A DNA stretch of 64,000 nt from Lineus longissimus (taxonomy: Eukaryota > Nemertea > Pilidiophora > Heteronemertea > Lineidae). The number at the start of each line of letters is the position of its first letter. The stretch's first letter is position 1. The stretch is from the NCBI RefSeq assembly GCF_910592395.1, contig NC_088317.1, forward strand, positions 12,464,001-12,528,000, in the 5' to 3' direction. The notes beneath the pieces were generated by a model. It made no database searches. It was not told the origin of the DNA and saw only the letters and a list, made by a program, of their open reading frames with translations. A program made the translations under genes and the position numbers. Shown one piece after another: positions 47,629 through 64,000 of this stretch.

Positions 47629-47651
47629 AATAGGCCTTTTCATGTCTTTGA

Positions 47652-47750
47652 CAAGCAAAAATAATTAATGACTGCAACATCTGATATGGCCATTGTAATT
47701 TGCAAGCACAAATAATTAATGACTGCAACATCTGATATGGCCATTGTACA
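47652..47750. repeat. ~50-bp tandem duplication
   Basis: GCAAAAATAATTAATGACTG...GATATGGCCATTGTA occurs twice in a row, almost identical, between the palindrome and the capsid gene. Confidence 0.8.
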
Positions 47751-47880
47751 ACTGAATATCACTATGGTTTAAAGGCAAATGTTATTCTGATGAAATATTT
47801 ACTGTGGAACCAAGTGGTTTTTAGAGGTCTTAATTTTGCCTGGAAAATGTAACATAATTTTACTAGTAAATAAATAGAAA

Positions 47881-49137
47881 ATGGCAACAGGATATTTATT
47901 AAATACCGAAAGGGCACATAAGATTCCACTTGGTTTAAAAGCTGAGAGGCAGCATCATATCATCACTCATAACCCCTCATCTGCTAACCCCAAAGAAACT
48001 TTGTATGTTAGAATACCGGCATTGCGAGAGAATACATTCTTTGTACCTAAATCTCTTTATCTGTCTGCTGATGTAACCATTTCTGGTGATTCTAAAAATA
48101 GTGTTGTAAATAATCTTGGTAGAAACCTGATTTCAAAGATGGTGGTTAAGTGGGGAACAGAGCAGATATTTGACCTTGACGAATACAGTCATTATTCTAC
48201 ATTTAAAGATCTGTGGCTAACAGAAGAAGTAAGAAATGATAGAGTTTTTCAGGGTATTCAATCAGAAAATCTTAGAGAATTAAGATCAGGAGTCGCTGAA
48301 GCTGATGTCACTGAAGAAACAGTTAATGAAAAGACATTAAAGAAAGTGTTTGACAAGAAGTACAAAATACCATTAGATTTTGAACTATTCCAAAATCATG
48401 CTCCATTTTACAAGTTTCCAATTCAAGAAGATGTTATCATTGAAATCACATTAGCACCAAAGGAAGAGATCATAGTTACCGCAACCACAGCAAGTATGGG
48501 CTACAAACTAGAGAATATTTGTTTTGAATATGACACCGTAACCAACAAAATGATTGCTAGTCAATTGAGTAACAAGTACAATTCTGGATTCTCAATATTT
48601 TATGATTGGGTAGACCATTTTAAGACAGTCAATGTTACTGCTAATGAAACACCAATTAATGAGAACATCAACTTTCCAAGAATGTCTATTAAAGGATTAT
48701 TATTACTATTTGTGTCTGACTATGTAGATGGAGCTAGAGATTCAGAGAAGTTTGAAAACCCTAACATAAGTAAAGTGCAGATCACAATAGAGGGTGTTGC
48801 CAATCAGGTGTTCCCAGAAGGAATGAGAATGATGGATCAATGGGAGGAGATCAAGAAACATTTTATGTCTGAAGATTTGAAGAAAACACATGACTGTAAC
48901 ATGACCATGGAGAAATACTATGGTGATTCTAATCACTATGGTTTATGGTTGGACCTGAGAACTTCTGAAGACAATCGTCTACACGGATCAGGAAAGAAGC
49001 TCCAGAACACAAAAGATGGTATTCAATTATCTATTACGAAGAAATCTGGAAAGGGACCATACAAAATGCACATATTCGTGGTTTCTGACGCCCAGGTTAA
49101 CATTCAGAATTCTCAGATTGCTTCACTCCAGCACTGA
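47881..49137 (+). CDS. Major capsid protein (hexon-like, double jelly-roll)
   Basis: A 418-residue frame with no break. The N-terminal MATGYLLNTERAHKIPLG, the VRIPALRENTFFVPKSLYL segment and the C-terminal KMHIFVVSDAQVNI strand are typical of Polinton/adintovirus hexon proteins, which trimerise into the icosahedral shell. Length is at the short end of the family. The start ATG follows AAATAGAAA. The stop codon lies in the loop of a perfect hairpin (49129-49144), the first unit of the double-hairpin series. Identification rests on pattern and genome context; I cannot run a structure comparison. Confidence 0.8.
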   Translation: MATGYLLNTERAHKIPLGLKAERQHHIITHNPSSANPKETLYVRIPALRENTFFVPKSLYLSADVTISGDSKNSVVNNLGRNLISKMVVKWGTEQIFDLDEYSHYSTFKDLWLTEEVRNDRVFQGIQSENLRELRSGVAEADVTEETVNEKTLKKVFDKKYKIPLDFELFQNHAPFYKFPIQEDVIIEITLAPKEEIIVTATTASMGYKLENICFEYDTVTNKMIASQLSNKYNSGFSIFYDWVDHFKTVNVTANETPINENINFPRMSIKGLLLLFVSDYVDGARDSEKFENPNISKVQITIEGVANQVFPEGMRMMDQWEEIKKHFMSEDLKKTHDCNMTMEKYYGDSNHYGLWLDLRTSEDNRLHGSGKKLQNTKDGIQLSITKKSGKGPYKMHIFVVSDAQVNIQNSQIASLQH

Positions 49138-49207
49138 GGTGCTGCAAGAACAAAGTTCACTCCAACACTGAGGTGCTGCAAGAACAAAGTTCGCTCCAGC
49201 ACTGAAT
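49129..49207. repeat. 34-bp double-hairpin tandem after the capsid stop
   Basis: CAGCAC-TGAG-GTGCTG, a CAA spacer, then GAAC-AAA-GTTC; the unit repeats 34 bp on and starts a third time. The architecture (hairpin, 3-nt spacer, 4-bp/3-nt hairpin) is that of the 25-nt elements found through the rest of the Polinton, with a longer first stem. Confidence 0.8.
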
Positions 49208-49249
49208 ACTAGATAAATGAGTTTTACTAGTGATTTTCTAAGTAATTAA

Positions 49250-49456
49250 ATGGATACACCAGGAAAGAAAGATATCATAAATACACTGTATCAAAGTTTA
49301 CTGTTGGCATCAACAACAATTGGTTACTCTATGCTACTGAAAAGGTTCTTGAGAATCAATATTGGTCCCCCAAGTCAGGCCAACCTAGAGGAAATTCTTA
49401 AACTGGGCGGAACTGTAGCTATTAGTAATGGAACATTAGAGTACCTTTACGATTAA
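49250..49456 (+). CDS. Small membrane protein, 68 aa
   Basis: Start in the context TAATTAAATGG. Two hydrophobic stretches (LLLASTTIGYSMLL and GGTVAISNGTLEYL) flank a basic loop KRFLRINIG. It sits between the capsid and penton-like genes, where Polintons often carry short virion membrane or cement proteins. No family recognised. Confidence 0.55.
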   Translation: MDTPGKKDIINTLYQSLLLASTTIGYSMLLKRFLRINIGPPSQANLEEILKLGGTVAISNGTLEYLYD

Positions 49457-49543
49457 GGAATCCTACCCAGAAATATTATGAAGTAAGAATAATTTACTTA
49501 TTTGATAAAAGGTAAATTTGAAAACGAAAATTTGCTTAAGTAA

Positions 49544-50263
49544 ATGGTTACTGTAATGAACATAGATTCAAGTGACTATCCAGATCAGAGTTCAAGTGAT
49601 TTAACAGTCAATCTCAAGACTGAAATTCAGGATGCATGTAGCATCACTTTAACTTTTGCAGTAATACCTTGTACATTCTACAACATAAGTGCAGCCAGGG
49701 AGAATAACCGAATCAAAGTTAAGGGGTTTGATGTGGCAGAGATTACGCTACCAGATGGTCTCTATGACCTACAGAGCTTTTCAAAAGTATTTGCGGATAA
49801 GTTGAAAGAAAATAGTATGAGTAGATGTGCTGTCAGATTTGACCTTGAAGAACCAACAGGTAAGGCCATCTTACACTTCCTAAAGAGAAAAAATGAGGCG
49901 CATTATCAGATCTATTTTCTTGGTAAAAGTAATGAATTATTTGGCATGAAATCAGAATGGCCTTACCCTTTAGACAATAAAAGTAAGGATGATGTTGTAA
50001 GCGAGAAACCCATCAATTTTAGACCAATTAACCATTTTGTTTTTCACTGTGACATAATCGAATCTAATAGTGTATTAAGTAATGGTGAAGCATCTGATGT
50101 GCTAACCACAAGACCAATAAAGGAAGCTAATTTTGGAGATTTAATAGCATACACATTTGAGAAACCAATAGCAATTCCCTGTAAACCAAGATTCAATAAG
50201 CTGAATATTCGCTTAACTGATGAAAAAGGTGACATCATCGATCTTAATGGTTATAATGTATAG
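49544..50263 (+). CDS. Penton-like minor capsid protein (single jelly-roll)
   Basis: 239 residues, start in TAAATGG. The C-terminal strand KLNIRLTDEKGDIIDLNGY matches the common end of Polinton and adintovirus penton proteins (rhxhTDE-x-G-x-hhDhNG). The middle has the HFVFHCDIIES strand. It would form the pentameric vertices of the capsid. Gene order after the hexon supports this. Confidence 0.75.
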   Translation: MVTVMNIDSSDYPDQSSSDLTVNLKTEIQDACSITLTFAVIPCTFYNISAARENNRIKVKGFDVAEITLPDGLYDLQSFSKVFADKLKENSMSRCAVRFDLEEPTGKAILHFLKRKNEAHYQIYFLGKSNELFGMKSEWPYPLDNKSKDDVVSEKPINFRPINHFVFHCDIIESNSVLSNGEASDVLTTRPIKEANFGDLIAYTFEKPIAIPCKPRFNKLNIRLTDEKGDIIDLNGYNV

Positions 50264-50344
50264 TACCAATTGGTATTAACTCGAGCTATGCTCTCAGCGA
50301 CACATCATTAAATTCACTGGAATTAACATTTTCACTGGAATTAA

Positions 50345-50803
50345 ATGGCTGGCATTGGTATGTTATTTGGATCTGCAATAATCAATGGATTAGCATTCAC
50401 TGGATCCGGTTACCTTTTCAAGTCACTAGACAAAAACGGTTATGAAGATGAAGTGAAAAGACATGATTTGGCTCAGGAGCAATTACAGAAGGCCTCCACA
50501 GAATGGGAGGAGCATAGAAAGAGTACTATTGACTTTGTTAATCTTGAATTAAAGAGAGAAAGAGACGCTTCTATTGATTTTAACAATACTGATATAGCAC
50601 TTACTGTTTACAATCATTTACATCCAGAAAGAACTATTGTACTACCTCAGCGACCACAATTAAGTGATTACTACCAACCTAGTGATGAAATGAAGAAATA
50701 CGAGTACCTATGGATTATCCTAGGACTTAGTGGTTTAGGGTTAATAATTTATTATTTTACTAGGGTTAGAAAGACTAAGACCACTGATCGGACACAGTCC
50801 TGA
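50345..50803 (+). CDS. Membrane-anchored virion-type protein, 152 aa
   Basis: Start in TTAAATGG. An N-terminal Gly-rich hydrophobic stretch (MAGIGMLFGSAIINGLAFTG), a charged helical middle (about residues 35-85) and a C-terminal transmembrane segment (LWIILGLSGLGLIIYYF) followed by basic residues. It could be a membrane-active virion protein; that role is inferred only from layout. The last codons run into two GGACACAGTCC hairpins (50790-50800 and 50809-50819). Confidence 0.6.
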   Translation: MAGIGMLFGSAIINGLAFTGSGYLFKSLDKNGYEDEVKRHDLAQEQLQKASTEWEEHRKSTIDFVNLELKRERDASIDFNNTDIALTVYNHLHPERTIVLPQRPQLSDYYQPSDEMKKYEYLWIILGLSGLGLIIYYFTRVRKTKTTDRTQS

Positions 50804-50837
50804 TGATCGGACACAGTCCTGATGATCAGAAGCGGGA

Positions 50838-51458
50838 CTAAGATTTTTGATGGGAAAGAGTAAATCCAAATGGATGTTGTAGTCTAATGATCAGTTTTGA
50901 TCCTTTTTTCATCTTAAGTTCTTCTATGTAGTACTGTCTTTTCTCCTTAGGAATAACACTGTTTTCTTCTAAGGCATCTTTCATGGCTGATTCATCCTTG
51001 TTAAAAAATAATACTAAAATTCTTATGTTCTCTCTGTAGTCCTTGACAACTGAATTGTACTTCTGAACTAGTAACCAAACAGTGAGATTGTAGTGCCTGC
51101 CGGAAAAGGCAAGATTACATAACTCGGACACCTTCTTTTTTGTGTCTCTCAAATTAGCACAGTCATCAATGAGGAATAATGTGTTAGAACCAGCAAAGGT
51201 CAGAGTAGCAAACTGAAGCACAAGGTCCAAATTACTGGCCACAGCTTCGGGATTAACTATGTAGACGTTCTTGTCTTGGTAAATCCATTTCCTTTCATAT
51301 GTCTTATTGTTGAAATATGTTGGACAGAAAATGACTATGTTCTGGAACTTGTGCCAATACTCCTTTTCTAAGAGGTCAAGGGCAAAATATGTCTTACCAC
51401 AATTGGTAACACCAGAAATTAACATATTGTGTGGCTCGTAAATAAATACTTCACTCAT
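50838..51458 (-). CDS. DNA-packaging ATPase (A32/FtsK-HerA type)
   Basis: 206 residues. Walker A GVTNCGKTYFALDLL (residues ~16-30) and Walker B NTLFLIDDCANL (~95-106), followed by a conserved SGRHYNLTVWLLVQKY segment with a sensor-like Gln. The length is normal for Polinton ATPases, which drive genome packaging into capsids. The start codon is only 4 nt from that of the divergent integrase gene; both share the palindrome CATTTAAATG. Confidence 0.88.
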   Translation of the reverse strand: MSEVFIYEPHNMLISGVTNCGKTYFALDLLEKEYWHKFQNIVIFCPTYFNNKTYERKWIYQDKNVYIVNPEAVASNLDLVLQFATLTFAGSNTLFLIDDCANLRDTKKKVSELCNLAFSGRHYNLTVWLLVQKYNSVVKDYRENIRILVLFFNKDESAMKDALEENSVIPKEKRQYYIEELKMKKGSKLIIRLQHPFGFTLSHQKS

Positions 51459-51462
51459 TTAA

Positions 51463-52512
51463 ATGGATGTAAAGGATGACACACAGCAGTATCTAAGGGA
51501 TTTGTACTACAACCCCGAGAGTCCCGTGGCTTACAGTTCTTTGAGTAAAATCTGGAAACAGGTCAAGGAAGATATGACTTCGTCACGAGAGCAGAGCTCA
51601 GGAAAACTTATTAAACAAAAAGAAGTGAAAGAATTTCTAGAAACACTACCAACTCACCAACTACACAAACCGGCCATTAAGAAATTCACCTTCAGGAAGA
51701 CAATGGTATCGTACATCGATCAACAGTGGCAAGCTGATCTGGTTGACATGCAGAAATTCGAGAGTAAGAATAAGGGTTTCAGATTCATTTTAACAGTCAT
51801 AGATCTATTTAGTCGTTTTTCTTGGGCTCTAGCAGTTAAGAGTAAGAGGGGAGAAGAAATCAGAGATGCATTTAAAGTGATATTTGAGGAAGCAAAATCA
51901 ACGAAAATCCAGTTTGATGACGGTAAAGAATTTTACAACAAACACTTCAAGGAACTCTTAACAGAAAATGACATAGAATGGTTCTCCACAAAATCTGATA
52001 AGAAGGCAGCAGTAGTAGAGAGATTCAATAGAACCCTTAAAGAAAAAATGTGGCGTTATTTCACCGCTAAGGAGACTGACAAGTGGATTGACGTTCTGGA
52101 TGACCTGGTCAGCGGCTACAACAACACATTTCACTCATCAATAGGTATGAAACCTGTAGACGCCAGAAAGATGGAAAACGAAGGAACAGTGTGGTACAAT
52201 CTTTACGGTCTTCACCTCAAAGAGACATTTGGTAATCCAAAGTACAAAGTAGGTGACAGTGTAAGAATTTCAAAGTACAAGTCCATTTTCGGTAAAGGTT
52301 ACATGCCCAACTACACTGAGGAGGTGTTCCAAATCAAACAGATCATCTTTACTCACCCTATCGTCTACAAGCTTGAGGATTACCACAAAGAAGAAATTCA
52401 AGGATATTTCTATGAAGAGGAATTGAGCTATGTTCCTAATCCTGACCAGCTAGAGTACAAGATCGAGAAAATCCTCAGGTACAAGACCAGTAAAGGCAAG
52501 AAATACGGATAA
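51463..52512 (+). CDS. Retrovirus-like integrase (DDE), chromodomain truncated
   Basis: 349 residues in the open frame. Core motifs: QWQADLVDM (first Asp), TKIQFDDGKEFYNKHF (second Asp) and AAVVERFNRTLKEKMWRYF (Glu). An SH3-like region YKVGDSVRISKYKS follows, then the beginning of a chromodomain (EYKIEKILRYKTSKGKKY). The TAA at 52510-52512 and a TAG about 27 nt further on interrupt that chromodomain; VKWKGYSD lies between them and the rest continues to a TGA near 52583. The catalytic part is intact, the chromatin-reading tail is not. A double hairpin at 51575-51599 encodes SSREQSS near the N terminus. Confidence 0.9.
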   Translation: MDVKDDTQQYLRDLYYNPESPVAYSSLSKIWKQVKEDMTSSREQSSGKLIKQKEVKEFLETLPTHQLHKPAIKKFTFRKTMVSYIDQQWQADLVDMQKFESKNKGFRFILTVIDLFSRFSWALAVKSKRGEEIRDAFKVIFEEAKSTKIQFDDGKEFYNKHFKELLTENDIEWFSTKSDKKAAVVERFNRTLKEKMWRYFTAKETDKWIDVLDDLVSGYNNTFHSSIGMKPVDARKMENEGTVWYNLYGLHLKETFGNPKYKVGDSVRISKYKSIFGKGYMPNYTEEVFQIKQIIFTHPIVYKLEDYHKEEIQGYFYEEELSYVPNPDQLEYKIEKILRYKTSKGKKYG

Positions 52513-52672
52513 GTGAAGTGGAAGGGTTACAGTGATTAGTTCAATGAATGGTTACCAGTTTCTGATATCAAATCATTGAAATGAAATAAAGTCTCTAAAG
52601 TGACTTAAGTCACAAGAACAAGTTCGAAAAACGTAATTTAAAAAAAAAATGTCCTACTAAATAAAGAAAGAA

Positions 52673-53782
52673 ATGGAGGGAGCAATATTTGATAATCAAA
52701 ATGGTATGATGAATCAAAATGGTATGATGAATCAGAATAATATGATGAATCAAAATATTCAGAAGTTTTTGTATTATTTGCAACAAAATAATATGTTAAA
52801 TCAAAATATGATAAATCAGATTATGTTAAATCAAAATATGATAAATCAGTTTATCTTAAATCAGATTATGTTAAATCAAAACATGGAAAATCAAAACATG
52901 GAAAATTAGAATAATATGATGAATCAAAACATGGAAAATCAACCTACAATTTATTGTGTTAAGTGCTGTGAAAAGAAACCTGAAATTAATTTTGAAAAGA
53001 ACAGGCGTAATAAACTACTTGATTACTGTAAAGAATGTGGTTCAAGTAAAATCAAGGGATGTAATAAATGTTATGAAATTAAATTACTAAGTGATGGTGA
53101 ATTTGGTAAAAACGGAAATAGAGGTAACTGCAGATCATGTTTTAATTCATATTACAAAAAGGATTACCTTGACCAAAATGGTAATAGAGACAGACACAAA
53201 ATTAGAGTTGGTCTAAACCGCATTTCTAAGGGAGAGTGTACCGGTAATTCCTCATTTAATCTAGGATGTACAGACAGTTTCTTCCATCAGTGGTTAGAGT
53301 ACCAGAGGAGTCTATCTCCAATAGGACAAAGTCCCGAGAACAGAGTTCGAATAGAAGAAGAAGAGTTGGATCATGTCTTACCAATCAAGGAATTCAAAGA
53401 TAAACCTGAACTGTGCTTTGCTTGGTTTAACATGAGACCAATGGAAAAGACAGAAAACAGACAGAAGAGTGCTACAGTAGACTACACACTATTTAAGGAT
53501 CAATTGGATAGGTCAATGGATTTCATGGTAAAGATGAGAAGTGAAAACTGGTTTGTCTTTCGAGACCAGGATGTAATACCAGATTGGAAAATAGTGATAT
53601 CACAGCGTTTCGGGGATTATCTTCGTGATGAAAATATGATTCTGCTTGATAGATTATCGAATTTAAATAATAACATGAGAATGAACCAGATTATTAACAT
53701 ATGTAGTCAGACAGAAATCATAAACGAGATGATTAAGTTGAATAATAGACTTGAAAGAAATTTACTCTTTGCAGTGAATTGA
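52673..53782 (+). pseudogene. Zinc-finger/HNH-like nuclease gene with Asn/Gln/Met-rich N terminus, one stop
   Basis: Two open frames in the same phase (52673-52909 and 52916-53782) are separated by one TAG at 52907-52909. The first ~85 residues are an N-Q-M repeat (NQNMMNQN type), prion-like in composition. Then come CxxC pairs (YCVKCCEKK, YCKECGSS, KGCNKC, NCRSCF) and an HNH-like core: EEELDHVLPIKEF, CFAWFNMRPM and EKTENRQKS. Similar zinc/HNH proteins occur in large DNA viruses and Polinton-like viruses. A double hairpin (53324-53348) is read as IGQSPENRV. The second part has its own Met and may still be translated. Stop at 53780-53782. Confidence 0.65.
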
Positions 53783-53801
53783 TTTTATTCTACTTAATTA
53801 A

Positions 53802-54062
53802 ATGAATAGAACCTGGGGTTACACAAAACGACCACGTAATTGGAAAGAAAGATTAGAACGATTTCATAGAGAATTAGAGGCAGAAGTAGAGTCAAAGTTG
53901 GAGCCTGGTCCCGAAAAACCTTTAAAACCTGCTGGGTTAGAAAAACCTGTTTGGTCAGAAAAACCTTTAAAATTTAATGTACTTCAAAAACCTGTAGTGT
54001 CTGCAAGATCAACACTAAACACTAGAAATGACAGAACAACTGATTCTAGTTATTCCCACTAA
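53802..54062 (+). CDS. Basic Lys/Pro-rich protein, 86 aa, unknown
   Basis: Start in TTAATTAAATG. The N terminus is basic and aromatic (WGYTKRPRNWKERL), followed by an internal imperfect repeat of EKPLKPAGLEKPVWSEKPL. It might bind DNA or be a capsid core peptide, but no family is recognised. It ends 4 nt before the next gene's start. Confidence 0.5.
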   Translation: MNRTWGYTKRPRNWKERLERFHRELEAEVESKLEPGPEKPLKPAGLEKPVWSEKPLKFNVLQKPVVSARSTLNTRNDRTTDSSYSH

Positions 54063-54066
54063 TTAA

Positions 54067-54726
54067 ATGAATGGAGACAACAAGGTTTATCCAGATTTAA
54101 GTAATTTAAACTCTGAAAGTCAATTAAACTATGAAAGGTCTGAAAAGCATACAGAAAGTAACCCTCAGGCTTTCAGACTACAACAAATATGTGATGTTAA
54201 GAGTTTCTTAGAAAGCGAGATTGAATTTAGAAGAAAGATATTTTCAAAGTACAAAAAAGCATTTAGCGTAATTACTGGCATTAGTCATAGTCTTAATTTT
54301 GTAAGCGTTGCGGCTGGCTCAGTTGGTGTGTCTGCACTGGCTGGTGTCATCACTGCACCAATAGGTTTTGCACTTGGTGGAGTGACCATTGGTAGCGCCC
54401 TTTTTTCCTCATTTCTAAGTTGGCAGAAGAAAAGCATACTTAAGAAAATTGAAAAACATGAGAATATCAGAATGTTGGCAATTTCAAAACTGAACACAAT
54501 CAATGATTTGGTTAGTAAAGCCTTAACCGATTCTCACATATCTACAGATGAGTTTACTTTGATTCTCAAGGAGAAGGAGAAATACATTTCGATGAAAAAT
54601 GCCATTAGGAAAAAACAAAGGGAGGCAAGTTCAGCTGTTGATGTAGAGTCTTTAAAGAAGACTTTTTTAGAAGAAGGAAAAAAACTAGCACAGACAGAGA
54701 TGCTAGAAAAACTAAAAGTTCAGTAA
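54067..54726 (+). CDS. Conserved Polinton accessory protein with Gly/Ala hydrophobic core, 219 aa
   Basis: Start in TAATTAAATG. Layout: polar N terminus, helix SFLESEIEFRRKIFSKYKKA, a hydrophobic Gly/Ala segment (SVAAGSVGVSALAGVITAPI), then KKIEKHENIRMLAISKLNTI and LVSKALTDSHISTDEFTLIL helices. Proteins with this order are common in animal Mavericks/Polintons. Their function is unknown, probably membrane-associated. No break. Confidence 0.7.
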   Translation: MNGDNKVYPDLSNLNSESQLNYERSEKHTESNPQAFRLQQICDVKSFLESEIEFRRKIFSKYKKAFSVITGISHSLNFVSVAAGSVGVSALAGVITAPIGFALGGVTIGSALFSSFLSWQKKSILKKIEKHENIRMLAISKLNTINDLVSKALTDSHISTDEFTLILKEKEKYISMKNAIRKKQREASSAVDVESLKKTFLEEGKKLAQTEMLEKLKVQ

Positions 54727-54740
54727 ATCAAACAGGACTC

Positions 54741-54985
54741 GAGCTATGCTCTCAGGACAAAGTTCGACTAAATAGTCCTAATCCTAATGTGGTGTATCAC
54801 TATCACTATCACCATGACTTCGGTGTTAGGGGTGAATTTCACCAAGTAACACTACCATCAGCACCACCCTATTCATTAGTTTAATCGAGCTATGCTCTCA
54901 GGACAAAGTCCGAATAAAGATTTTGCACTCGAGCTATGCTCTCAGGACGAAGTCCGACTAGGACTACGTCCAGAGAACAAAGTTC
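54741..54985. repeat. Intergenic cluster of four double hairpins
   Basis: Units at 54741-54765, 54887-54911, 54931-54955 and 54961-54985 lie between the accessory gene and the PolB stop. The first three read GAGCTATGCTC, TCA, GGAC-NNN-GTCC (or GTTC). The fourth reads GGACTACGTCC, AGA, GAACAAAGTTC. Between the first two there is a TATCACTATCACTATCACCA tract. Confidence 0.9.
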
Positions 54986-54988
54986 GAC

Positions 54989-57900
54989 TCAAGCGAAGTT
55001 TGAATCGCTGTAATCTATGTAGCCTTCATAATACATTCCAAATGGTAAGGTGCTTATTCCATCTTCAAGTATGAACCTCTTGTCATCAAAAGGACTGAGG
55101 CTTTTTTTGTCAACTTCTTCCAAATAGATTTGGTGTTTATCTGATCTTAAGTGTCTCATCTTGTGGTAAAATGACCTACTCTTTTCAAGACAATCAACAT
55201 AGTCATCAAATGAGATATTTCTCCTTACTACATTCTTGGCAATACCCTTCAATTTCTTAGAATCGTAATCTTTTGTCCTGTAAGCGTACATCTTACTTCT
55301 CAGGGCAATGAATTCAGTCATCTCTACTCCTCCTAGCTCATCCTTGAAATAACCTGGTACCTTCTTTTTACTGGTATCATAGAGTGTATGATCTTTTGGA
55401 TAATTACTGAAATCAAAATAGTGTCTCAACTCCTTTAAGTCTTTAGTTAAGTCATCAGTATTAATGTTAACTACGAAAGAATCTGTATCTAGATACAGTA
55501 GTTCAATATTTTTCTCACCAAAATATGGTTGAAGAACTTCATAATAGAACTCATACATTAATAATTTAGACAATTCAAGTACGGCAGCTCCTATGTAGAT
55601 TGGTTTGTTGAATTTCATTGATGTTTTCCTCATGCTAATAGCAGCATTATGTTCGTCAAATACGCATATCGATGAAAACCTGGGATTGGCCATTACATTC
55701 CTGGCTCTCTCCCCGTCCGATACCAATTCAATTTCAACCCTGTTCCTTACATTCTCACAAGTCTTTCCGTAGAAAGCATTATTCATGAGCTTGAAATAGT
55801 CTTTCTCAAAATCAGTCTTAGAATCCATACGTCTTTTAGTATTAAAATCAATGTATGGTGCTAACCACTTTGATTGTTTAAAACATATCACCGAATGAAC
55901 CCTCTTAAGTACCATTCCGTGCTTGAGGTAAAATTGTAGCATTCTGTAATGCACTATGTAATTAGTTTTATCCTTTTGTGTTAGTATTAGTTTCTCTACA
56001 TTTGATCTTTTATCATCATCCAGTAACTCCCTCTGGTAAGGACTTAATTCATCATCTTCAATAAAGAGAGATTCAGGACAGAATGGAAAGTTCCTCGACT
56101 TAAATTTAATATTTCCTGGATACTCCAAATCCACCTCTAAGAAATACCCTACCTCACTATCACTTGGAATTGCCATAATCTGCTCTTTACTAATAACATT
56201 CATGTTAAGTCGAGCTTTGCTCTCTGGACTTTGTCCTAGTCGGACTTTGTCCTGAGAGCATAGCTCGAGTGGATCAATATCTATCATTTCAAAACTACCA
56301 TAGGGTTGAGGTTCCATCATGGCCCATCCGTAAAGATTATTAGCATCGATGTACAGCAATTTATGACTCTCATCGGCCTTGATATGTCTTGTGCCCATAA
56401 CACCCGATATTCCACCTCTTATTGCCTTTTCAAAAGTAAGTAATATGTTGGTATCAGTCAGTAGTTCTAGGTTTATTCCTGTGTATTTCAAACCAGCTTG
56501 CCAGGTTAGGCCTGGTGCCGAGTAACAGTGACATGGATCTATCTGAAAATAGTTCAAATTGACATCCCTGAATTTCTCAAATAAATCAGCTAGAAGGATC
56601 ACATCAGTTTTGAGGTAGAGGTCAATGAACTCACCGTGATTCCTGATCTTGAAATGATCCCATATTACCTTAGCTTCATCATAGGCAGAATCAGGTGCCA
56701 TTTCATTTTTCAATTCGTCAAAAAACATAGACTTTTCTAGGTAAGTAACATTGTAGCTTTCATGTGATGTGTAAAAAGAGTAAGGTACTGAACCCTTCTT
56801 CCTCAATAGCTTAAAGTCAGTGGTATTTGGGAACAGCTGTCTGGTAATTTTAAAATCATCATCCAACATTGATTTGGTTATGTTGTCTAAACTGGACTGC
56901 AGGAATCTGTACGAGTCCAAAAACCTGAAACAACCGAACTGAAATGAAATGTATTCCTCTGCTGTTTTGGCAAGTAATTTCAGTTTCTTGTACTTCGGTA
57001 GCTTAGTCATTAATTCTTTAATAAATAAGTGAGAATCGTAATTACTGAGATTGTGAAAAAACACTGGAACAAACATAGCTTTCTTTTCATTCAAATTACA
57101 CGAGTTGTGAGCAGCACCTCGATATCTACCACAGTAGTGATCATGATCCTTGACCTTGTCATATCCCAAAGGTTGATTACAATAGTAACAATGTGTTTCT
57201 AATTGATATTTATGCCAGTCTTCATCTGTCATTGTTAGAGGAAAGTTACAGTTCAATAAATTAGAGAATTGTTCTTCCATCCTGATTAACCAATTACAGA
57301 ACACATCTACAACATCAGCACCCCTGTGAGACACATACTGGCTACTGTAAATGTGTGTGTAGTCTGAGTGAACATAAACACCAACAGCTGATGCATTTTG
57401 TTTAAAAAGTTTTTTAGTGGTAACAGTGGTATCTGTCTGAGGACGAAGTCCGACTCGAGCTCTGCTCTGAGTTGTGTCGGACTTCGTCCTGAGAGCAGAG
57501 CTCGAGTTATCATTGACTGTTGTGCTTATCGCTTCGAAATCAGCATAGATCACAAACGGAACTCTATTTTTGAATGAGTGTTTTTCAAATTTAATTTGTG
57601 ACCATTTACTGTTAGGTGGAGGCAAAGTAATCTTACAGTAATCGTGTTCTCCACATTTCTTTTTATGTTTATCTAGTGTTGACTTCCTGTAAAAGTAATT
57701 CATGCATCTCCTGCAAAGATACACTCTATGAGCTAGTGTCCTGAAGAAAAGATTGATGTCTCTTATGTACATGAAATGGTCCTTGAAATACAGCAGATCG
57801 ATGACATCATCATCATCATAATTCTTGGACAGGTAGAGAGGTTCTAGTTTTGCCTCACAGGTGCTCTTAGCCGATTCATTCTGCAATTTAAACACATTAA

Positions 57901-58903
57901 TTTTGAGATTATTATCACTCTCTATCTTAGGAATATCCTTTTGAATACATACAGGAAATGAGTCTATTCGTACTCCGTACTGAGAGCTAGGCCCGATTAC
58001 GACATCAGTAGTTTTCGAACTCTGTTCTCGTGACGAAGTCATTTCTAGCATATCGGTAGTAATATTTAATGTACTCTCGAGCTCTGCTCTCAGGACAAAG
58101 TCCGTCTCTGGATTTTCTTTCAGATATTTAGCGGCCAATAAAGACCAGAGAAAACATTTATTTTCATTTGATTCCACATTTATTACTGCTTTTGTTTTAA
58201 ATGGTAATTTAGTGTAATGACCACCTTTACACCTCTTGTAAGAACAGATGGTCATGTTACAAGACTCTATTCTATTTAAAGTAAGTCCAGAACCTTGAAA
58301 GTACCTTTCCTCAATCTGTGTCTTAATGTAGTTTAACTGGTTGGTTATGGCATAAATTGCCTGGTTCCTTGAAATTATGCTTTCCATTGGAGACTGAATG
58401 GGGTGTGTCGAACTTTGTTCTCGGGACTTTGTCCTAGTCGAGCTATGCTCTCTGGACGTAGTCCGGGTTACACTTTCACCCTGACGATCAATGCTCTGCT
58501 CTGCGACCAAAGGTCGATCAAACTGAGCAAATACTGATATGCTAATTTTGTGATGGTAATCATTGAGTTGAAATAATACCTCCTCTAATTTATCTCTGTA
58601 TTCATACACTTGTTTAGCTTCTCTGTCAATCTTCAAACTAATGGTGACTACAGGCTTTCCAAATTGTTTTACTATTTCTATTCCACTCACTTTCTTTATG
58701 CCATCTAGCTCATTTTCCTCAAATGCAAGTTTCTTATCCATACTTTTAGGGATCAGTGATTGGGCTCGGGGTTGAGCAAGAGGCACATAATCCGGGTTTA
58801 ATTTACTTAAGTGACCTTTGGTTCTCCTGTGAATGGCCATATTATTGTATGATATGTACTTGTCACATGTAGTGCAAAGTATTTTCTGATTCTTAGCAGT
58901 CAT
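54989..58903 (-). CDS. Protein-primed family B DNA polymerase (pPolB)
   Basis: About 1304 residues from the ATG at 58903; an open TTG 11 codons upstream is less likely. An N-terminal C2H2 finger (CTTCDKYISYNNMAIHRRTK) and a second zinc module (CRRCMNYFYRKSTLDKH) precede the exonuclease: FVIYADFEAI (Exo I), FFHNLSNYDSHLF (Exo II), YLKTDVILLADLF (Exo III). Polymerase motifs: KLLYIDANNLYGWAM (A), KLMNNAFYGKT (B) and LLYLDTDSFVVN (C), plus a KKKVPGYFKDE region. It would copy the linear genome from a terminal protein primer. Five clusters of double hairpins lie inside the frame (56212-56266, 57441-57503, 58017-58041, 58079-58103, 58410-58464) without breaking it. It is transcribed divergently from the gene at 58960. 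Confidence 0.92.
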   Translation of the reverse strand: MTAKNQKILCTTCDKYISYNNMAIHRRTKGHLSKLNPDYVPLAQPRAQSLIPKSMDKKLAFEENELDGIKKVSGIEIVKQFGKPVVTISLKIDREAKQVYEYRDKLEEVLFQLNDYHHKISISVFAQFDRPLVAEQSIDRQGESVTRTTSREHSSTRTKSREQSSTHPIQSPMESIISRNQAIYAITNQLNYIKTQIEERYFQGSGLTLNRIESCNMTICSYKRCKGGHYTKLPFKTKAVINVESNENKCFLWSLLAAKYLKENPETDFVLRAELESTLNITTDMLEMTSSREQSSKTTDVVIGPSSQYGVRIDSFPVCIQKDIPKIESDNNLKINVFKLQNESAKSTCEAKLEPLYLSKNYDDDDVIDLLYFKDHFMYIRDINLFFRTLAHRVYLCRRCMNYFYRKSTLDKHKKKCGEHDYCKITLPPPNSKWSQIKFEKHSFKNRVPFVIYADFEAISTTVNDNSSSALRTKSDTTQSRARVGLRPQTDTTVTTKKLFKQNASAVGVYVHSDYTHIYSSQYVSHRGADVVDVFCNWLIRMEEQFSNLLNCNFPLTMTDEDWHKYQLETHCYYCNQPLGYDKVKDHDHYCGRYRGAAHNSCNLNEKKAMFVPVFFHNLSNYDSHLFIKELMTKLPKYKKLKLLAKTAEEYISFQFGCFRFLDSYRFLQSSLDNITKSMLDDDFKITRQLFPNTTDFKLLRKKGSVPYSFYTSHESYNVTYLEKSMFFDELKNEMAPDSAYDEAKVIWDHFKIRNHGEFIDLYLKTDVILLADLFEKFRDVNLNYFQIDPCHCYSAPGLTWQAGLKYTGINLELLTDTNILLTFEKAIRGGISGVMGTRHIKADESHKLLYIDANNLYGWAMMEPQPYGSFEMIDIDPLELCSQDKVRLGQSPESKARLNMNVISKEQIMAIPSDSEVGYFLEVDLEYPGNIKFKSRNFPFCPESLFIEDDELSPYQRELLDDDKRSNVEKLILTQKDKTNYIVHYRMLQFYLKHGMVLKRVHSVICFKQSKWLAPYIDFNTKRRMDSKTDFEKDYFKLMNNAFYGKTCENVRNRVEIELVSDGERARNVMANPRFSSICVFDEHNAAISMRKTSMKFNKPIYIGAAVLELSKLLMYEFYYEVLQPYFGEKNIELLYLDTDSFVVNINTDDLTKDLKELRHYFDFSNYPKDHTLYDTSKKKVPGYFKDELGGVEMTEFIALRSKMYAYRTKDYDSKKLKGIAKNVVRRNISFDDYVDCLEKSRSFYHKMRHLRSDKHQIYLEEVDKKSLSPFDDKRFILEDGISTLPFGMYYEGYIDYSDSNFA

Positions 58904-58959
58904 TCTATTTATTAGATTAAAATTTATTAAATTCAATAAATCTCTTGAATTAAATAGAA
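58904..58959. promoter_or_regulatory. Divergent AT-rich promoter region, PolB and penton-like gene
   Basis: 56 nt of nearly pure A/T separate the two start codons. Both ATGs are preceded by the same motif: AAATAGA on the PolB side and AAATAGAA on the other. The motif also precedes the capsid gene (AAATAGAAA at 47873). A bidirectional promoter or shared initiation signal is inferred. Confidence 0.5.
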
Positions 58960-60021
58960 ATGGACTTCATAATCAATGAACAAGAATGTAATGAAGCCAA
59001 ATTTGAGTACTACTTAACAGACCAATTAGACATAAAATCCATTACTTTGAAATCGATAACCTTTTACAATTCATGGTGGACAGGTGATTTTCTACCAGAG
59101 GGAGTCAGGATTTTCTCATTTCTAGTCGAAATAACCAGAATTACAACAAATGAGCCCTTAGATAAACAATTATGGTGTATGGATGAATTTAGGACATTAT
59201 TTGCTCCTGGACTTGAAACAGATACACTTGAAAAGGAAGTCATGAAAGTTTGCGAACGGTATTTGGAAAATGAATCTACCACAACTAAAGACACCATTAC
59301 TCAATACACATTTCCATACTCTCGACATTTTAGTTTAAGTGAGTTTTGTGAGGTATGGCAAAAATACATAAAAGAAATTGGAATAAGCCATGTGAAAATT
59401 TACTGTGATAACAATAATTACATAACCCTTGAACTTACAGAGGATAAAGAGTACCCTCTGAAAGTATACAAGTTAGATAAAAATGAAAAAATCAAGATTG
59501 AGAGAAACACAGAAGGTTTTCAAATAAGAAAAACCATAAGAGAGGTGACAGAAAAACAGCTCACAGTGGTGAATGAGTGGTTTGGCTTTAAGCAAACTAA
59601 ATTCACAAAGAAAGGAAAATACTACTCCACAAGACCACTCAACTTTTACAGGAAATATCTATTCCTGCAAGCTAATTTGGTTGACAAAGCTAAGACCCTC
59701 TACAACAATAAACCATCTAACATTTTCTGCATCATACCTGTAGAAGATGGTGACCAAATAAAAATGCAGCGATACGAACCGAATTGTAAGAAAACGATAA
59801 ATAAGTGTACTAATCACATAAAATTCGAAATCACTGATGAGAATGGTAAGCTAGTTAATTTCAGAGGAACAGAGGTTTCTTTAGAGTTAAGAATCGAGCT
59901 ATGCTCTCAGGACGAAGTCCGAATAGAGTTAAACTCTCAGGACAAAGTCCGAATAGAGTTAAACTCTTGTGGTGAAGACAAGCACCTCGGACTCGAGCTC
60001 TGCTCTCAGGACGAAGTCTGA
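58960..60021 (+). CDS. Second penton/fibre-like protein
   Basis: 353 residues. The strand near residue 300 (HIKFEITDENGKLVNFRGTE) is the same C-terminal motif as in the penton-like protein at 49544. The earlier part (SITFYNSWWTGDFLPEG, then mixed alpha/beta) differs. It may be a vertex or fibre-type protein; this is inference. The last ~40 codons are made of four double-hairpin units (59896-60019) read as ELCSQDEVRIELNSQDKV, so the natural C terminus was probably at about residue 312. Confidence 0.6.
   Translation: MDFIINEQECNEAKFEYYLTDQLDIKSITLKSITFYNSWWTGDFLPEGVRIFSFLVEITRITTNEPLDKQLWCMDEFRTLFAPGLETDTLEKEVMKVCERYLENESTTTKDTITQYTFPYSRHFSLSEFCEVWQKYIKEIGISHVKIYCDNNNYITLELTEDKEYPLKVYKLDKNEKIKIERNTEGFQIRKTIREVTEKQLTVVNEWFGFKQTKFTKKGKYYSTRPLNFYRKYLFLQANLVDKAKTLYNNKPSNIFCIIPVEDGDQIKMQRYEPNCKKTINKCTNHIKFEITDENGKLVNFRGTEVSLELRIELCSQDEVRIELNSQDKVRIELNSCGEDKHLGLELCSQDEV
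59896..60019. repeat. Double-hairpin tandem array in 30-bp steps
   Basis: GAGCTATGCTC/GGACGAAGTCC at 59896-59920, GAGTTAAACTC/GGACAAAGTCC at 59926-59950, GAGTTAAACTC at 59956-59966 with its partner replaced by a GGTG..CACC hairpin, and GAGCTCTGCTC/GGACGAAGTCT at 59995-60019. GAGT:ACTC keeps the stem paired after a double change. Confidence 0.92.
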
Positions 60022-60034
60022 CCACCTGATGAGA

Positions 60035-60496
60035 TCATTCCATTAAAGGAATAGTACATTTCTTCTCTTTAACTACAGGTTTAACAAGAGGGCTAATTGA
60101 CCCCTTCATGACTGCTTCATTCGGACTTTGTCCTGAGAGCATAGCTCGATTCAAGCCTGATCGCTGCTCTTTACTTACTTTTTTAGGAAGTTTCTTAAAC
60201 ATAATAAATGCTGCTAAAATAATTGCACCTAAACCTAGTACATAGACATAGGTATTACTGGTAGATTCACGCAGTGATACATCAGTATTTTGAGATTGTG
60301 GTTCTTCTTCCTCTACTTCTTCTTCCTCCTTTTCCACAACTCTGTTTTTTGGGACAGAGTCCTGTACTTTACTACCCAGTTCTCTAGACCATGCTAATTG
60401 TTTCTCTGATCGAGGTTTCTTAGACACTGAAACTTTAGTCGGACTTTGTCCTGAGAGCATAGCTCGAGTAGTATCAGTTACAGTTTCAAGTTCCAT
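60035..60496 (-). CDS. Single-pass membrane protein with acidic stretch, 153 aa
   Basis: Start in ATAAATGG (TAAATG class). The N-terminal third is basic, then a Glu-rich run (VEKEEEEVEEEEPQSQ), a transmembrane segment (VYVLGLGAIILAAFIMF) and a basic tail KKLPKKVSK. Two double hairpins (60441-60465, 60123-60147) are each read as RAMLSGQSP, and a single GGACAGAGTCC hairpin lies at 60352. No family recognised. Confidence 0.6.
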   Translation of the reverse strand: MELETVTDTTRAMLSGQSPTKVSVSKKPRSEKQLAWSRELGSKVQDSVPKNRVVEKEEEEVEEEEPQSQNTDVSLRESTSNTYVYVLGLGAIILAAFIMFKKLPKKVSKEQRSGLNRAMLSGQSPNEAVMKGSISPLVKPVVKEKKCTIPLME

Positions 60497-60544
60497 TTAT
60501 CTTGCTCAAATTAATTCGAACTATGTTCTCATAACCAGGTTAAT

Positions 60545-61417
60545 TTAGTATTCTTTATCATCACTACCTGTGATATCTAGACTTTCATCTATTGGTTTGT
60601 CACATTCAGAGACAGTCATATTTGGTGTATTCATATTTGATGCAGTCATACTCGATGTATTCATAGATGATTCCTCATGACAATGACCTAAAGTAATAAG
60701 TGTTGTTGAAGCAAGTGCAGTTAGTGCACCCATTCTCAAACTCAACCATCCAAGCCATTTATCCAACTCGTTAGTTATCAAATAATCATTTCTAAGATCA
60801 TGGTAAAGATCATCTTCATCATCTATTGGTAATAACCACCTTGATAATTTAGTGTAAGCTTTAAGTACTGTCTTACCCAAAGAATCATTAAGTCTGGCAG
60901 CCATCTTTGTTTCATACATTCTATTGTGTTTTAAGATTTCTTTTTCAGTCATATTATCTAAGTCATTAAAAGTTATTTGTGTATTAAGGAAATCCTTGCT
61001 TTTACCAGTTGCAACTAGAATCTCTAAGTCTTGTTTGGCTTTAAGGCCACTATCAGTCAAATAGTTCAAATTTTGTTGATTGCTAGTTGATCCTAGTTGG
61101 TAACTAAAATTGACTATTCCCTGACTGGGATTAACTATTCCCTGACTAGGAGTAACCAAATTTGAACTATTCAACTGCTTGTTTGAAACTTGTTGATTTG
61201 TAGAGCAGTTCTGTTGAAAGTTAGTACTGTTCTGTTGGTAACTACCAGTGTTCTGTTGGTTAGAAGCCCCGACTCGAGCTATGCTCTCAGGACTGCGACC
61301 GACTCGAGCTATGCTCTCAAGACGAAGTCCTACTGGGTTTTGATTGATAACACCAATATGTTTCATTTGTTGTTCAATTACAGATGATGTCTGACTATTC
61401 ATTTGCTGATTGTTCAT
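60545..61417 (-). CDS. Gln/Asn-rich Polinton protein, 290 aa, unknown
   Basis: Start in TTTTAAATG. The N-terminal half is Q/N/S-rich (NNQQMNSQTSSVIEQQ; SNQQNTGSYQQNSTNFQQ) with a short PSQGIVN repeat. The C-terminal half is folded-looking (TEKEILKHNRMYETKMAARL, WLLPIDDEDDLYHDLRNDYL) and contains a hydrophobic LGALTALASTTLI-like stretch near the end. Two double hairpins (61276-61330) are read as SIARVGRSPESIARVG. Similar-sized proteins flank PolB in other Polintons, but I cannot name it. Confidence 0.6.
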   Translation of the reverse strand: MNNQQMNSQTSSVIEQQMKHIGVINQNPVGLRLESIARVGRSPESIARVGASNQQNTGSYQQNSTNFQQNCSTNQQVSNKQLNSSNLVTPSQGIVNPSQGIVNFSYQLGSTSNQQNLNYLTDSGLKAKQDLEILVATGKSKDFLNTQITFNDLDNMTEKEILKHNRMYETKMAARLNDSLGKTVLKAYTKLSRWLLPIDDEDDLYHDLRNDYLITNELDKWLGWLSLRMGALTALASTTLITLGHCHEESSMNTSSMTASNMNTPNMTVSECDKPIDESLDITGSDDKEY

Positions 61418-61440
61418 TTAAAATAATAGAAAAATGAGTG

Positions 61441-61971
61441 TTAAGTGCAAAATGCTGTTTTCATAAGTTTATTGCACTTAACACTAGCTCGAGCTATGCT
61501 CTCAGGACAAAGTCCGGCTCGAGCTATGCTCTCAGGACGAAGTCCGGCTGGTGCTAACTTAATACTACTGATGCAGTTATTGTCTCTACCTGCACTGGCA
61601 CTCAGTAAAACGTCAAACTGCTTGTCAATATCCTGGTCATATACCTTCTCAAATTTGTAATTTTGGAAGAAAATACTTTGAGTGAAATCATACCATAATC
61701 TCTCCAAATCATTTACTCGCTCCTTGTTGGTTAAAAAAGGTCTAAATATTACATAATCAATTTTCAGCGTTTTAAAGGCTTGGTGTAAAAATACCTTGTA
61801 GTTAATTGTGACCTTCACACCACAGTAATGCAGAAATCTAAGGAAAGCATAGTACACTAGTCTAAGGTCAGTGATATTCTCATCGGTTAATTGCGGTTTA
61901 CCAATTGCCCTGTTAATAAATTCCAATGCAAGAAACCAGTCATATTCCCCACAGTGAAATTTAAAAAGCAT
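61441..61971 (-). CDS. Unknown protein, 176 aa, hairpin-derived tail
   Basis: A helical, aromatic-rich body (CGEYDWFLALEFINRAIG, then DLRLVYYAFLRFLHYCG, then RLWYDFTQSIFFQNYKF) ends at about residue 140. The tail contains two 30-bp double hairpins (61491-61545) read as SIARAGLCPESIARA. A second possible start lies just upstream out of frame. No family recognised. Confidence 0.5.
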   Translation of the reverse strand: MLFKFHCGEYDWFLALEFINRAIGKPQLTDENITDLRLVYYAFLRFLHYCGVKVTINYKVFLHQAFKTLKIDYVIFRPFLTNKERVNDLERLWYDFTQSIFFQNYKFEKVYDQDIDKQFDVLLSASAGRDNNCISSIKLAPAGLRPESIARAGLCPESIARASVKCNKLMKTAFCT

Positions 61972-62002
61972 GGCTTCACCATGTAACCCTTGGTTACATA
62001 AC

Positions 62003-62638
62003 TTAGAGGGGAGTGTTAATACCCATTTTTAGGGCTGACTGAAGAGTACTTTCATATCTCTGCTTACTAAGACATTTTCTGGAACTTGAAAAGCAACCCT
62101 GCAAATACCATTCCACAAAGTCCTTTAAATACTTAACTGCCGATTCGCACAGCCGACTCCATCCAAGTTTCCTTAGAATACTGTCAAAGTAACGTGTCTT
62201 GTTGTCAATATTGATCTCAAGAGTTTTAAAATCATCGTCGTAAGTAGTCGAATTGCAATTGGTGCAGAATTGATACCTCACAGTTTTAGCTGCGTACCTT
62301 GCTGAATTCAAGTTTTTTTTATACTCAAAAAGTGTCCACCTTTTACAATTTCTACATAATTCCGCTTTGGCGATGGTACTGGTGTCATACTCTTTCATTT
62401 TTGGCAGGACTGCTTTGTGTGTCTCAGTCAGACTTCGTCTTGAGAGCATAGCTCGAGTAGGCTTATCAAATTTCCCACTGTCATAATTCTTGCTGTCATT
62501 TTCTTCACTAAAATTTCTAGTCGGACGCAGTCCTGAGAGCATAGCTCGATCCATGATCCTAGGACGAATGTATCCTTTAAGATTCTCATTGTTCCACTCA
62601 CTAGAATAATAATCTTTAAATGAGATGTATTTATTCAT
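62003..62638 (-). CDS. Zinc-ribbon protein, 211 aa
   Basis: Start in TAAATATG. A CRNC...CTNC pair (LCRNCKRWTLFEYKK, about 45 residues apart with YQFCTNCNSTT) suggests a zinc ribbon. A helical C terminus follows (YLKDFVEWYLQGCFSSSRKC). Two double hairpins (62523-62547, 62430-62454) fall in the N-terminal 70 residues and are read as DRAMLSGLRPT and TRAMLSRRSLT. It might act in transcription or DNA binding; family unknown. Confidence 0.55.
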   Translation of the reverse strand: MNKYISFKDYYSSEWNNENLKGYIRPRIMDRAMLSGLRPTRNFSEENDSKNYDSGKFDKPTRAMLSRRSLTETHKAVLPKMKEYDTSTIAKAELCRNCKRWTLFEYKKNLNSARYAAKTVRYQFCTNCNSTTYDDDFKTLEINIDNKTRYFDSILRKLGWSRLCESAVKYLKDFVEWYLQGCFSSSRKCLSKQRYESTLQSALKMGINTPL

Positions 62639-62686
62639 ATTTACATGATAATTATTTTTTTAAACATTGTTTTTTGATAGAATGTC

Positions 62687-64000
62687 ACCTAAGACCTTTT
62701 ACGTGATTTTAAGGCTTTACGTGATTTTAAGGCTTTAACACCCTCTATTAAACCATAGATTATGGAGCTCACAATAGCAATAACTGCTATGATCAGATGT
62801 TCGGCTAGAAAGCCAACAACTGCACCAATTGTTTTCAGGAAAAATGAAACTAAAGACCCTATTATTCCCAGTAAAGCCGCAGCTGATTTCTTGGCTAGTT
62901 CTTTTAGCCATTCAGCAAACTTCTTGAGACCTTCTTTACTTTATCTGGTATTGATGGTTTTGGTCCTGGCCCAGGTTCTGGTGTAGGTCCTGGAGTTGGG
63001 TCTGGTCCTGGAGTTGGGTCTGGTCCTGGAGTTGGTTTTACAGATTTAGTGGCACCACTTAAAGCACTACTGATACTGAGACCTAGAGTTGTAAATGTCA
63101 TTACAACAGCTGTTATTATGGCGCTAATGGTTACACCATACGTCTTAAAAAGTAACTTTATTCTGTCCTTTAGAGGAATAGTTGAATCTGGTTTCTTTAG
63201 AACATCAACAATTAAACGTTTAATTCTTATAGTTTGTGACTCCCTGTCATTGTCTAACCTCCATACCTTTGACTGTTCCTCATACAATTTGTCATTTAGT
63301 TCATCTATTTGCTTTTTCAACTCTCCTTTATCTTTAGTATCTTCTTCTACAGACTTTACATAGTCTCTTGTTAAATTATGAAGCTGATCTTTTAATTCCT
63401 CTATTTGCATGTCCTTATCCATCTTTACTGCAGCTAGTTCATCACCAGCCTGTTTTAACCCTCTAAGTTCTCTCAAGGCATATTCAGTAAAACCCAGTGT
63501 TTTAAGTTCATCATCATTAGAATCTATCAGTTTATCTATTGGTTTGTTTGAACTGTTTACCTCATTAATTAATATATCTGTTTGAGTGGATGCAGATTTA
63601 GGTTCCCTTACTGGTGGGTCAGGTGCAATCATATCTTTAATCATGTTAGCAAATCTAGTACCAAACTTATTCTTTAAAGTGTTTTCAGCATAGAAGCTTC
63701 CATTATCCTTAGTTAAAGGAATTAACTTTATCTTTTCTCCATTATTATTAGTATAGACCGTGCTAAATAAATTTTTGTTTTCTAGTTTATCCGTTATCAA
63801 ATCAAATTCAGAATTTGATTTCCAATGTAAATAAAGTTTGTTACCTTTGTAAACAATTTGTGGTGCAAGATTACTCAATTTTTTCTTGTCATAATTCCAG
63901 TTTGATTCTCCCAATGCTTTATCAAGTTTATCCTCTATTTTATCGTAATTAAACTCCTTTTCCATCAATTCAGGGACAGTACCTCTTGCTCTTTCTGGAG
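62687..64000 (-). pseudogene. Long coiled-coil/membrane Polinton protein, frameshifted, cut by window edge
   Basis: The frame is open to the right edge with no certain start; a Met at 63965 is possible. The N-terminal part is mixed, then a long coiled coil (ELKDQLHNLTRDYVKSVEED and KKQIDELNDKLYEEQSKVWR), a hydrophobic segment (ITAIITAVVMTFTTLGL-like) and a Pro-Gly repeat (PGPDPTPGPDPTPGP). A frameshift near 62935 ends the frame at 62904. The adjoining frame then continues with an EWLKELAKKSAAALLGIIG helix and two membrane segments to a basic RKALKSRKRS end at 62687, the usual C terminus for this Polinton protein type. A viral membrane or core protein is inferred. Confidence 0.6.

Follow-up and report, generated by a model that had tools for sequence, protein, structure and literature searches.

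The Polinton near the right-hand end of a 64,000-nt stretch of the Lineus longissimus genome (NC_088317.1, positions 12,464,001 to 12,528,000; hereafter the window, in whose coordinates positions are given) is strewn with short double-hairpin elements (DHEs), which raises the question of what these units are and how they came to lie inside the genes of a virus-like transposon. An initial annotation, made from the letters of the window alone, had described them as a 25-nt unit and had offered a mobile mini-element, a packaging or replication mark, or RNA structure as explanations. We propose that the units are, with high probability, copies of a non-autonomous mobile mini-element, 27 nt long, which is a parasite of the Polinton and moves via a 3-nt staggered cut.

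Structure and distribution of the unit

The DHE core comprises 27 nt, C-GAGC-NNN-GCTC-TCA-GGAC-NNN-GTCC-G, and stands between two copies of one triplet, mostly A[C/A]T; the 25 nt first reported thus have to be replaced by a 27-nt core plus a 3-nt target-site duplication (TSD), or 30 nt per insertion. Perfect double 4-3-4 hairpins with 3-nt spacing were found at 21 places in the window, the first at 51575, and 26 units were tabulated (table 1), 18 of which have identical triplets on both flanks. Between 50000 and 62700 there were 29 matches to the consensus (at most 6 mismatches in 19 positions), compared with 0.85 per region in 20 first-order Markov resamplings; from 1 to 50000 the same threshold gave four matches, every one with exactly 6 mismatches, and no DHE with 5 or fewer. 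The double hairpins are real, as all 24 positions named in the initial annotation are among the consensus matches. Four of the listed copies, those at 54741, 59995, 61276, and 61306, each have one stem that is not Watson-Crick perfect; the list itself lacked the units at 57970 and 60518 as well as a permuted (57441-57467) and a divergent (58490-58516) unit and incomplete ones. The interval given for the element also began too early, at 49129: positions 49122-49189 hold a 34-nt tandem repeat of another kind, with a CAGCAC-TGAG-GTGCTG hairpin, which overlies the capsid gene's stop codon and is not a DHE.

The same architecture was recovered by a scan that made no use of the consensus. Searching for two perfect 4-3-4 hairpins with an identical flanking triplet in 329.5 kb, overlapping loci and inherited copies included, gave 117 places at a spacer of 3 nt and 0 to 2 places at each other spacer from 0 to 8. 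Paired changes were then counted in 97 unique 27-mers, picked by consensus similarity (at most 7 mismatches), and compared with 500 shuffles: double changes that keep a pair occupied 45 cells (shuffle mean 12.9, maximum 22) and unpaired cells numbered 127 (shuffle mean 178.5, minimum 163), the strength of stem conservation being somewhat overstated because the shuffles ignore relatedness. The outer C-G pair is not conserved and was unpaired in 53 and standard in 44 of the 97. These results demonstrated that the stems are conserved via paired changes and that the hairpins matter. A second subfamily, with a TCT or TCG spacer and stems such as GAAC/GTTC, has an equal size and duplication. Units lie in both orientations inside genes and either strand is able to fold, so that nothing points to RNA over single-stranded DNA; of the RNA structure suggested initially, only the importance of the hairpins is thus upheld. 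No Rfam family matched positions 46800-64000 at the gathering threshold.

In the 391-Mb genome the exact consensus matched 1593 times and its reversed control not once. The 100 matches listed of these 1593, in contig order, place 96 on one contig (C1, 29.44 Mb) and four on a second (C2). All 96 on C1 are Polinton-associated, 89 of them inside the Polinton stretches that were fetched and the other 7 no more than 2.6 kb from Polinton evidence, and the four on C2 are all inside a single Polinton stretch (L020). Two lone matches on C1 belong to older Polintons with units of their own, the longer matching pieces of which are ~68-84% identical to window DNA. Thus, within the window (at 5 mismatches or fewer) and among the 100 matches listed, the units are restricted to Polintons, in agreement with the remark that none had been noticed outside. 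A genome-wide host repeat was rejected on these grounds, and a mitochondrial location does not apply to the placed units, which are all in Polintons on long contigs. Seven regular expressions for unit-like peptides found none among 120 listed of 4203 polB homologues, so that the element may have arisen recently or be limited to few hosts. The exact consensus had no match in IMG/VR or in the GTDB species genomes, and the titles and abstract beginnings of the papers listed yielded no description of such an element in Polintons.

Empty sites, target duplication, and reading frames

We compared the window with 12 further Polinton copies from this genome (L009-L020), giving 13 copies. Empty sites in the other copies hold the triplet once and filled sites hold it twice, which indicates that an insertion adds 30 nt. 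In an all-against-all alignment, exact 30-nt indels numbered 476 (pairwise events, not independent ones, which collapse to 109 distinct flank-plus-insert strings) and 60-nt indels 92; 29-nt indels occurred 10 times and 31-nt indels 26 times. A recognisable unit was present in 352 of the 476, and 16 were dropped as tandem-ambiguous. The unit-bearing indels fall into 49 flank contexts, some of which are a single site with a flank substitution, and the 3-nt duplication is perfect between filled and empty sites in 35 of them. The 98 flanking triplets carry A (77), G (14), or T (7) at the first position, C (49), A (25), or G (24) at the second, and T (94), C (3), or A (1) at the third; of the contexts classed by a simple rule as not nested in another unit (30 of 48), 28 have a purine two bases to the right of the triplet. 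At empty sites that are not of the form A-N-T (ACC, ACA, TCT, TGT, GAT), the two triplet copies often differ and the unit-adjacent one often looks usual, one TCT site showing a perfect duplication despite its form. These few cases suggest that an incoming unit may bring its own flanking triplet, as in cohesive-end joining. The permuted unit, a single event, looks like the product of a tandem or circular form opened at the spacer between the hairpins.

Presence of the units varied from copy to copy, 29 of 36 aligned sites being polymorphic. At 56211-56267, two units in opposite orientation were observed in the window, L009, and L015, one unit in L010, L012, L016, L019, and L020, and none in L011, L013, L014, and L018. 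A unit in L020 is nested inside the hairpin of another, and the polB gene of L017 bears a private insertion, absent from all 10 other copies scored. Each 9.9-kb stretch of the 12 other copies, not all of which represent the same Polinton part, contained 8 to 26 units. The insertions are therefore precise, duplicate their target, occur in both orientations, and nest. Comparing single units between copies, as the initial annotation had advised, revealed clean empty sites, and together with the TSDs, the nested and inverted insertions, and the copy-private ones these support the mobile mini-element among its explanations. Simple tandem slippage as the sole cause was rejected because of the inverted neighbours (56211/56241) and the nested unit.

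Since the duplicated triplet and the 27-nt core make 30 nt, the reading frame is kept, and 21 of the 26 window units lie inside open reading frames (ORFs), one of them supplying the stop codon of ORF353. Over the 13 copies, 175 of 242 unit copies fall where the window is coding and 67 where it is non-coding; as 91% of the window's stretch is coding, coding copies are under-represented. The inserted stretch is stop-free in 170 of the 175 coding copies, and the TCA spacer, which reads TGA in one of the six frames, occurs in none of the 33 copies in that frame and in 126 of the 142 coding copies in the others, all of these being counts of copies and not of independent sites. The insertions thus conserve the frame. 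The gene for an HNH-like protein provides a further example: in 120 single-piece genomic matches its length differed from that in the window by 0 (54), +30 (51), -30 (3), +60 (2), -3 (6), +3 (1), +12 (1), or +27 (2), and in 15 two-piece matches by +45 to +60, the three at +45 starting five residues later. Six copies of this gene were fetched, two with a clean empty site at 53323-53349 and four with units, and a homologue from another assembly (P0001), 93% identical in the alignment, is without the ten residues of the window's unit. Two older Polintons of the same genome (L051 and L052), with an apparently different gene order, have units of their own, one of which lies in the HNH-like gene, by eye at the same site as in the window, so that loss or recombination must also occur.

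How the unit may move

Precise ends and a 3-nt duplication at unrelated targets argue for an enzyme making 3-nt staggered cuts, and the restriction to Polinton DNA suggests movement during extrachromosomal Polinton replication. For the enzyme, the intermediate, and the time or stage of movement, we infer the following course. The hairpins would form in single strands while the Polinton replicates outside the chromosome, and, as both strands can fold, a single-stranded replication intermediate is the likely substrate. A nuclease or recombinase would recognise the hairpins or the flanking triplet, and the element would insert at an A[C/A]T-like triplet and duplicate it. Copies that break genes would be lost, and partial loss of units by slippage seems to occur too. 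The enzyme would most likely come from a Polinton gene acting in trans, and judged by sequence the HNH-like ORF is the best candidate among the visible Polinton genes; D152, H153, P156, and N172 are invariant in an alignment of five sequences (A1). Polinton integrases leave duplications of 5-6 bp, which makes the rve integrase an unlikely mobiliser. The Endonuclease VII domain of polB was set aside as a special enzyme, this Pfam domain being common to many polB homologues and none of the 120 listed homologues having a unit-like peptide. No transposase other than the rve integrase was matched among the Polinton ORFs scanned, the rest of the genome not having been sought for partners. A bolder version, which we regard as rather doubtful, would make the 27-nt unit a transposable element, possibly smaller than any other that has a defined TSD, moved in trans by the nuclease of a virus-like transposon via an excised, possibly circular, 30-nt intermediate whose 3-nt junction pairs with matching target triplets; its 30-nt step would suit coding DNA and turn it into a natural peptide-insertion engine for the virus.

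Several observations weigh against a mobile mini-element. An identical triplet pair is lacking in 8 of the 26 window units, the duplication is imperfect in 14 of the 49 contexts, and 108 of the 476 30-nt indels have no consensus match within 8 mismatches, part of them being by eye divergent units and part not. Single-strand folding is modest (five units, -3.2 to -4.6 kcal/mol, z -0.14 to -2.26). The mobilising enzyme itself was not identified: the HNH-like protein had no Pfam match, the profile of alignment A1 had no PDB match, and the HNH call was made by eye. Most counts are of related copies and not of independent events, and the evidence consists of traces of movement, movement itself not having been observed. 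Finally, by the four-gamete test 85 of 322 site pairs are incompatible, and such conflicting site histories imply that recombination, repeated insertion, or loss also act. These incompatible pairs, suggestive of slippage and recombination, would also be expected if the units spread passively, by template switching or gene conversion in Polinton replication together with recombination and without a dedicated enzyme, as would the tandem arrays of 30-nt period and the half units that resemble loss between 2-nt repeats. We consider passive spread improbable, because the ends are fixed (27 nt plus the 3-nt duplication) at unrelated sites, and because template switching should produce varied lengths, yet there are few indels of 29 nt (10) or 31 nt (26) beside the 476 of 30 nt.

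Conservation of the stems by paired changes and the confinement to Polintons of the units placed so far would equally fit a cis-acting site selected for Polinton replication, packaging, or recombination. This explanation appears very unlikely to us given the 29 polymorphic sites out of 36 in 13 copies, the two orientations, the 8 to 26 units per stretch, and the location of most copies within genes (175/242); with sites, number, and orientation varying among sister elements, the packaging or replication mark suggested initially is not supported. There is also scant reason to favour an RNA-borne route, in which a host reverse transcriptase would copy hairpin RNA into Polinton DNA. Such a route has been proposed for yeast mitochondrial GC clusters (PMC4478555), and the conserved structure would agree with it; no reverse transcriptase domain was matched in the visible Polinton genes, however, and a host enzyme would hardly explain the confinement to Polinton DNA.

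The mobile mini-element that we prefer resembles several known systems in part. Miniature inverted-repeat transposable elements (MITEs) and other non-autonomous DNA transposons are non-coding, have a TSD, and are presumably moved in trans, and the Polinton unit is similar in these respects, with a TSD of fixed length and empty sites; it is far shorter, has two internal hairpins instead of terminal inverted repeats (an outer C-G pair only, and no matching autonomous partner among the Polinton ORFs scanned), and has so far been seen in one kind of element. For the DHEs of mitochondria in Allomyces, fission yeasts, and other fungi, variation in presence was argued to show mobility (PMC10085805, PMC7218506). 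They share with the Polinton units two short tandem hairpins as a repeating unit, several copies, and presence/absence variation, here at orthologous sites between paralogous Polinton copies of one genome. Those elements lie in mitochondrial DNA, in fission yeasts chiefly in intergenic DNA or rRNA genes (PMC10085805, PMC7218506), whereas the Polinton units, compared here by architecture, lie in a nuclear virus-like transposon, mostly in frame in protein genes, with a 27-nt core and a 3-nt duplication. The repetitive hairpin-forming elements of sponge mitochondria are likewise short hairpin repeats, a few of them inside genes, and differ in being mitochondrial and mostly intergenic (PMC2800124). 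Rickettsia palindromic elements are also palindromic repeats inserted in frame in protein genes (PMC10969869), as are the Polinton units; they measure ~150 bp and have a conserved peptide, whereas the Polinton units add 30 nt, are read in several frames, and belong to a eukaryotic transposon. The GC clusters of yeast mitochondria (GC42 and others) are again short palindromic mobile repeats with target-site nucleotides (AG), but they are GC-rich, most abundant at 32-42 nt, mostly intergenic, mitochondrial, and directed to another target, and the mechanism by which mitochondrial short hairpins move is left open there (PMC4478555). Short mobile hairpins are already known from mitochondria and bacteria. 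The unit described here looks like an unusually small mobile DNA element and like a parasite nested in a parasite, with the Polinton serving as its genome, and it inserts peptides of 10 residues into viral proteins without a change of frame. With >1500 copies, clean empty sites, a fixed target duplication, and few candidate carrier genes, its mechanism is testable.

The carrier Polinton

Pfam matches above the cut-off were obtained in the carrier for polB, an rve integrase, and an A32-like ATPase, and the capsid-like gene (major capsid protein, MCP) gave a sub-threshold Capsid_N match (E 0.009); on these predicted domains, the double jelly-roll MCP being sub-threshold only, the carrier qualifies as a Polinton. 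Homology to the window starts at 46865-46890 in all 29 other MCP loci. Among the 100 capsid-gene matches listed (686 first-look candidates), identity to the window protein is 97-100% and 94 are free of internal stops, a pattern pointing to a large, recent expansion. Searches of IMG/VR by MCP and by the HNH alignment confirmed no relatives.

Table 1. Units and carrier features in the window.
Feature	Position	Strand	Remarks
Polinton carrying DHEs	46879..64000 (left end ~46879, right end past window)	+	homology edge; A32-like ATPase, rve integrase, polB
DHE core, integrase ORF	51574..51600	-	spacer TCG, in frame; flanks GAT/GGA; absent from L017
HNH-like nuclease ORF, candidate mobilising enzyme	52916..53782	+	motif read by eye
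DHE core, HNH-like ORF	53323..53349	-	TSD AAT; +10 aa; empty in L053, L054; residues absent from P0001
DHE core, intergenic	54740..54766	+	TSD ACT; one stem not Watson-Crick perfect
DHE core, intergenic	54886..54912	+	TSD AAT; empty in L017, L011
DHE core, intergenic	54930..54956	+	TSD ACT
DHE core, TCT-spacer subfamily, intergenic	54960..54986	-	TSD ACT, common with neighbour
polB ORF, 1315 aa	54989..58936	-	DNA_pol_B_2 E 6e-19; frame open across its DHE insertions
DHE core, polB, inverted-pair member	56211..56237	+	TSD AGT
DHE core, polB, second inverted-pair member	56241..56267	-	TSD AGT
Permuted unit GGAC-GAA-GTCC-GACTC-GAGC-TCT-GCTC, 27 nt	57441..57467	+	TGA flanks
DHE core, polB	57478..57504	-	flanks TGT/AGT; empty in L011, L013, L015; half unit in L009, L010
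DHE core, polB, GTAC stem	57969..57995	-	TSD ATT; empty in 7/11 other aligned copies
DHE core, polB, stems GAAC/GTTC and TGAC/GTCA	58016..58042	+	spacer TCG; without flanking repeat
DHE core, polB	58078..58104	+	TSD TCT; empty in L011, L013
DHE core, polB	58409..58435	+	spacer TCG; flanks TGT/AGT
DHE core, polB	58439..58465	+	spacer TCT; flanks AGT/GGT
Divergent unit, second stem GACC-AAA-GGTC	58490..58516	+	first stem partly unpaired; triplet ATC; 30-nt presence/absence among copies
DHE core, near ORF353 C-terminus	59895..59921	+	TSD AAT
DHE core, ORF353, stem GAGT/ACTC (paired change)	59925..59951	+	TSD AAT
DHE core providing ORF353 stop codon	59994..60020	+	flanks ACT/ACC; one stem not Watson-Crick perfect
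DHE core, ORF153	60122..60148	-	TSD ATT; empty in L011
DHE core, ORF153	60440..60466	-	TSD AGT; clean empty site in L011 and others; 28 pairwise events
Degenerate DHE (6 mismatches)	60517..60543	+	both hairpins intact; without flanking repeat
DHE core, ORF290, one stem mismatch	61275..61301	+	TSD ACT
DHE core, ORF290, one stem mismatch	61305..61331	+	TSD ACT
DHE core, ORF176, tandem	61490..61516	+	TSD GCT
DHE core, ORF176, tandem	61520..61546	+	TSD GCT
DHE core, ORF211, stem AGAC/GTCT (paired change)	62429..62455	-	TSD AGT; 15 pairwise events
DHE core, ORF211	62522..62548	-	flanks AGT/ATC

Close homologues of Polinton proteins (P0001, P0002, P0005, and P0006) are filed under the Bartonella assemblies CL42QHWL, CL32QHWL-2, and CL27QHWL and are probably eukaryotic contamination. 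A MITE-like inverted repeat, its arms 77 nt long (47492-47650), lies close to the Polinton's left end, and homology skips it in many other copies. Upstream of the HNH-like gene, 52694-52957 holds a 15- to 18-nt tandem repeat rich in ATG-AAT-CAA-like words, near which the open frame is longer in many other copies than in the window. To the left of the Polinton, ORFs with Pif1-like helicase and Helitron-like N-terminal domains at 30821-36516 constitute a Helitron.

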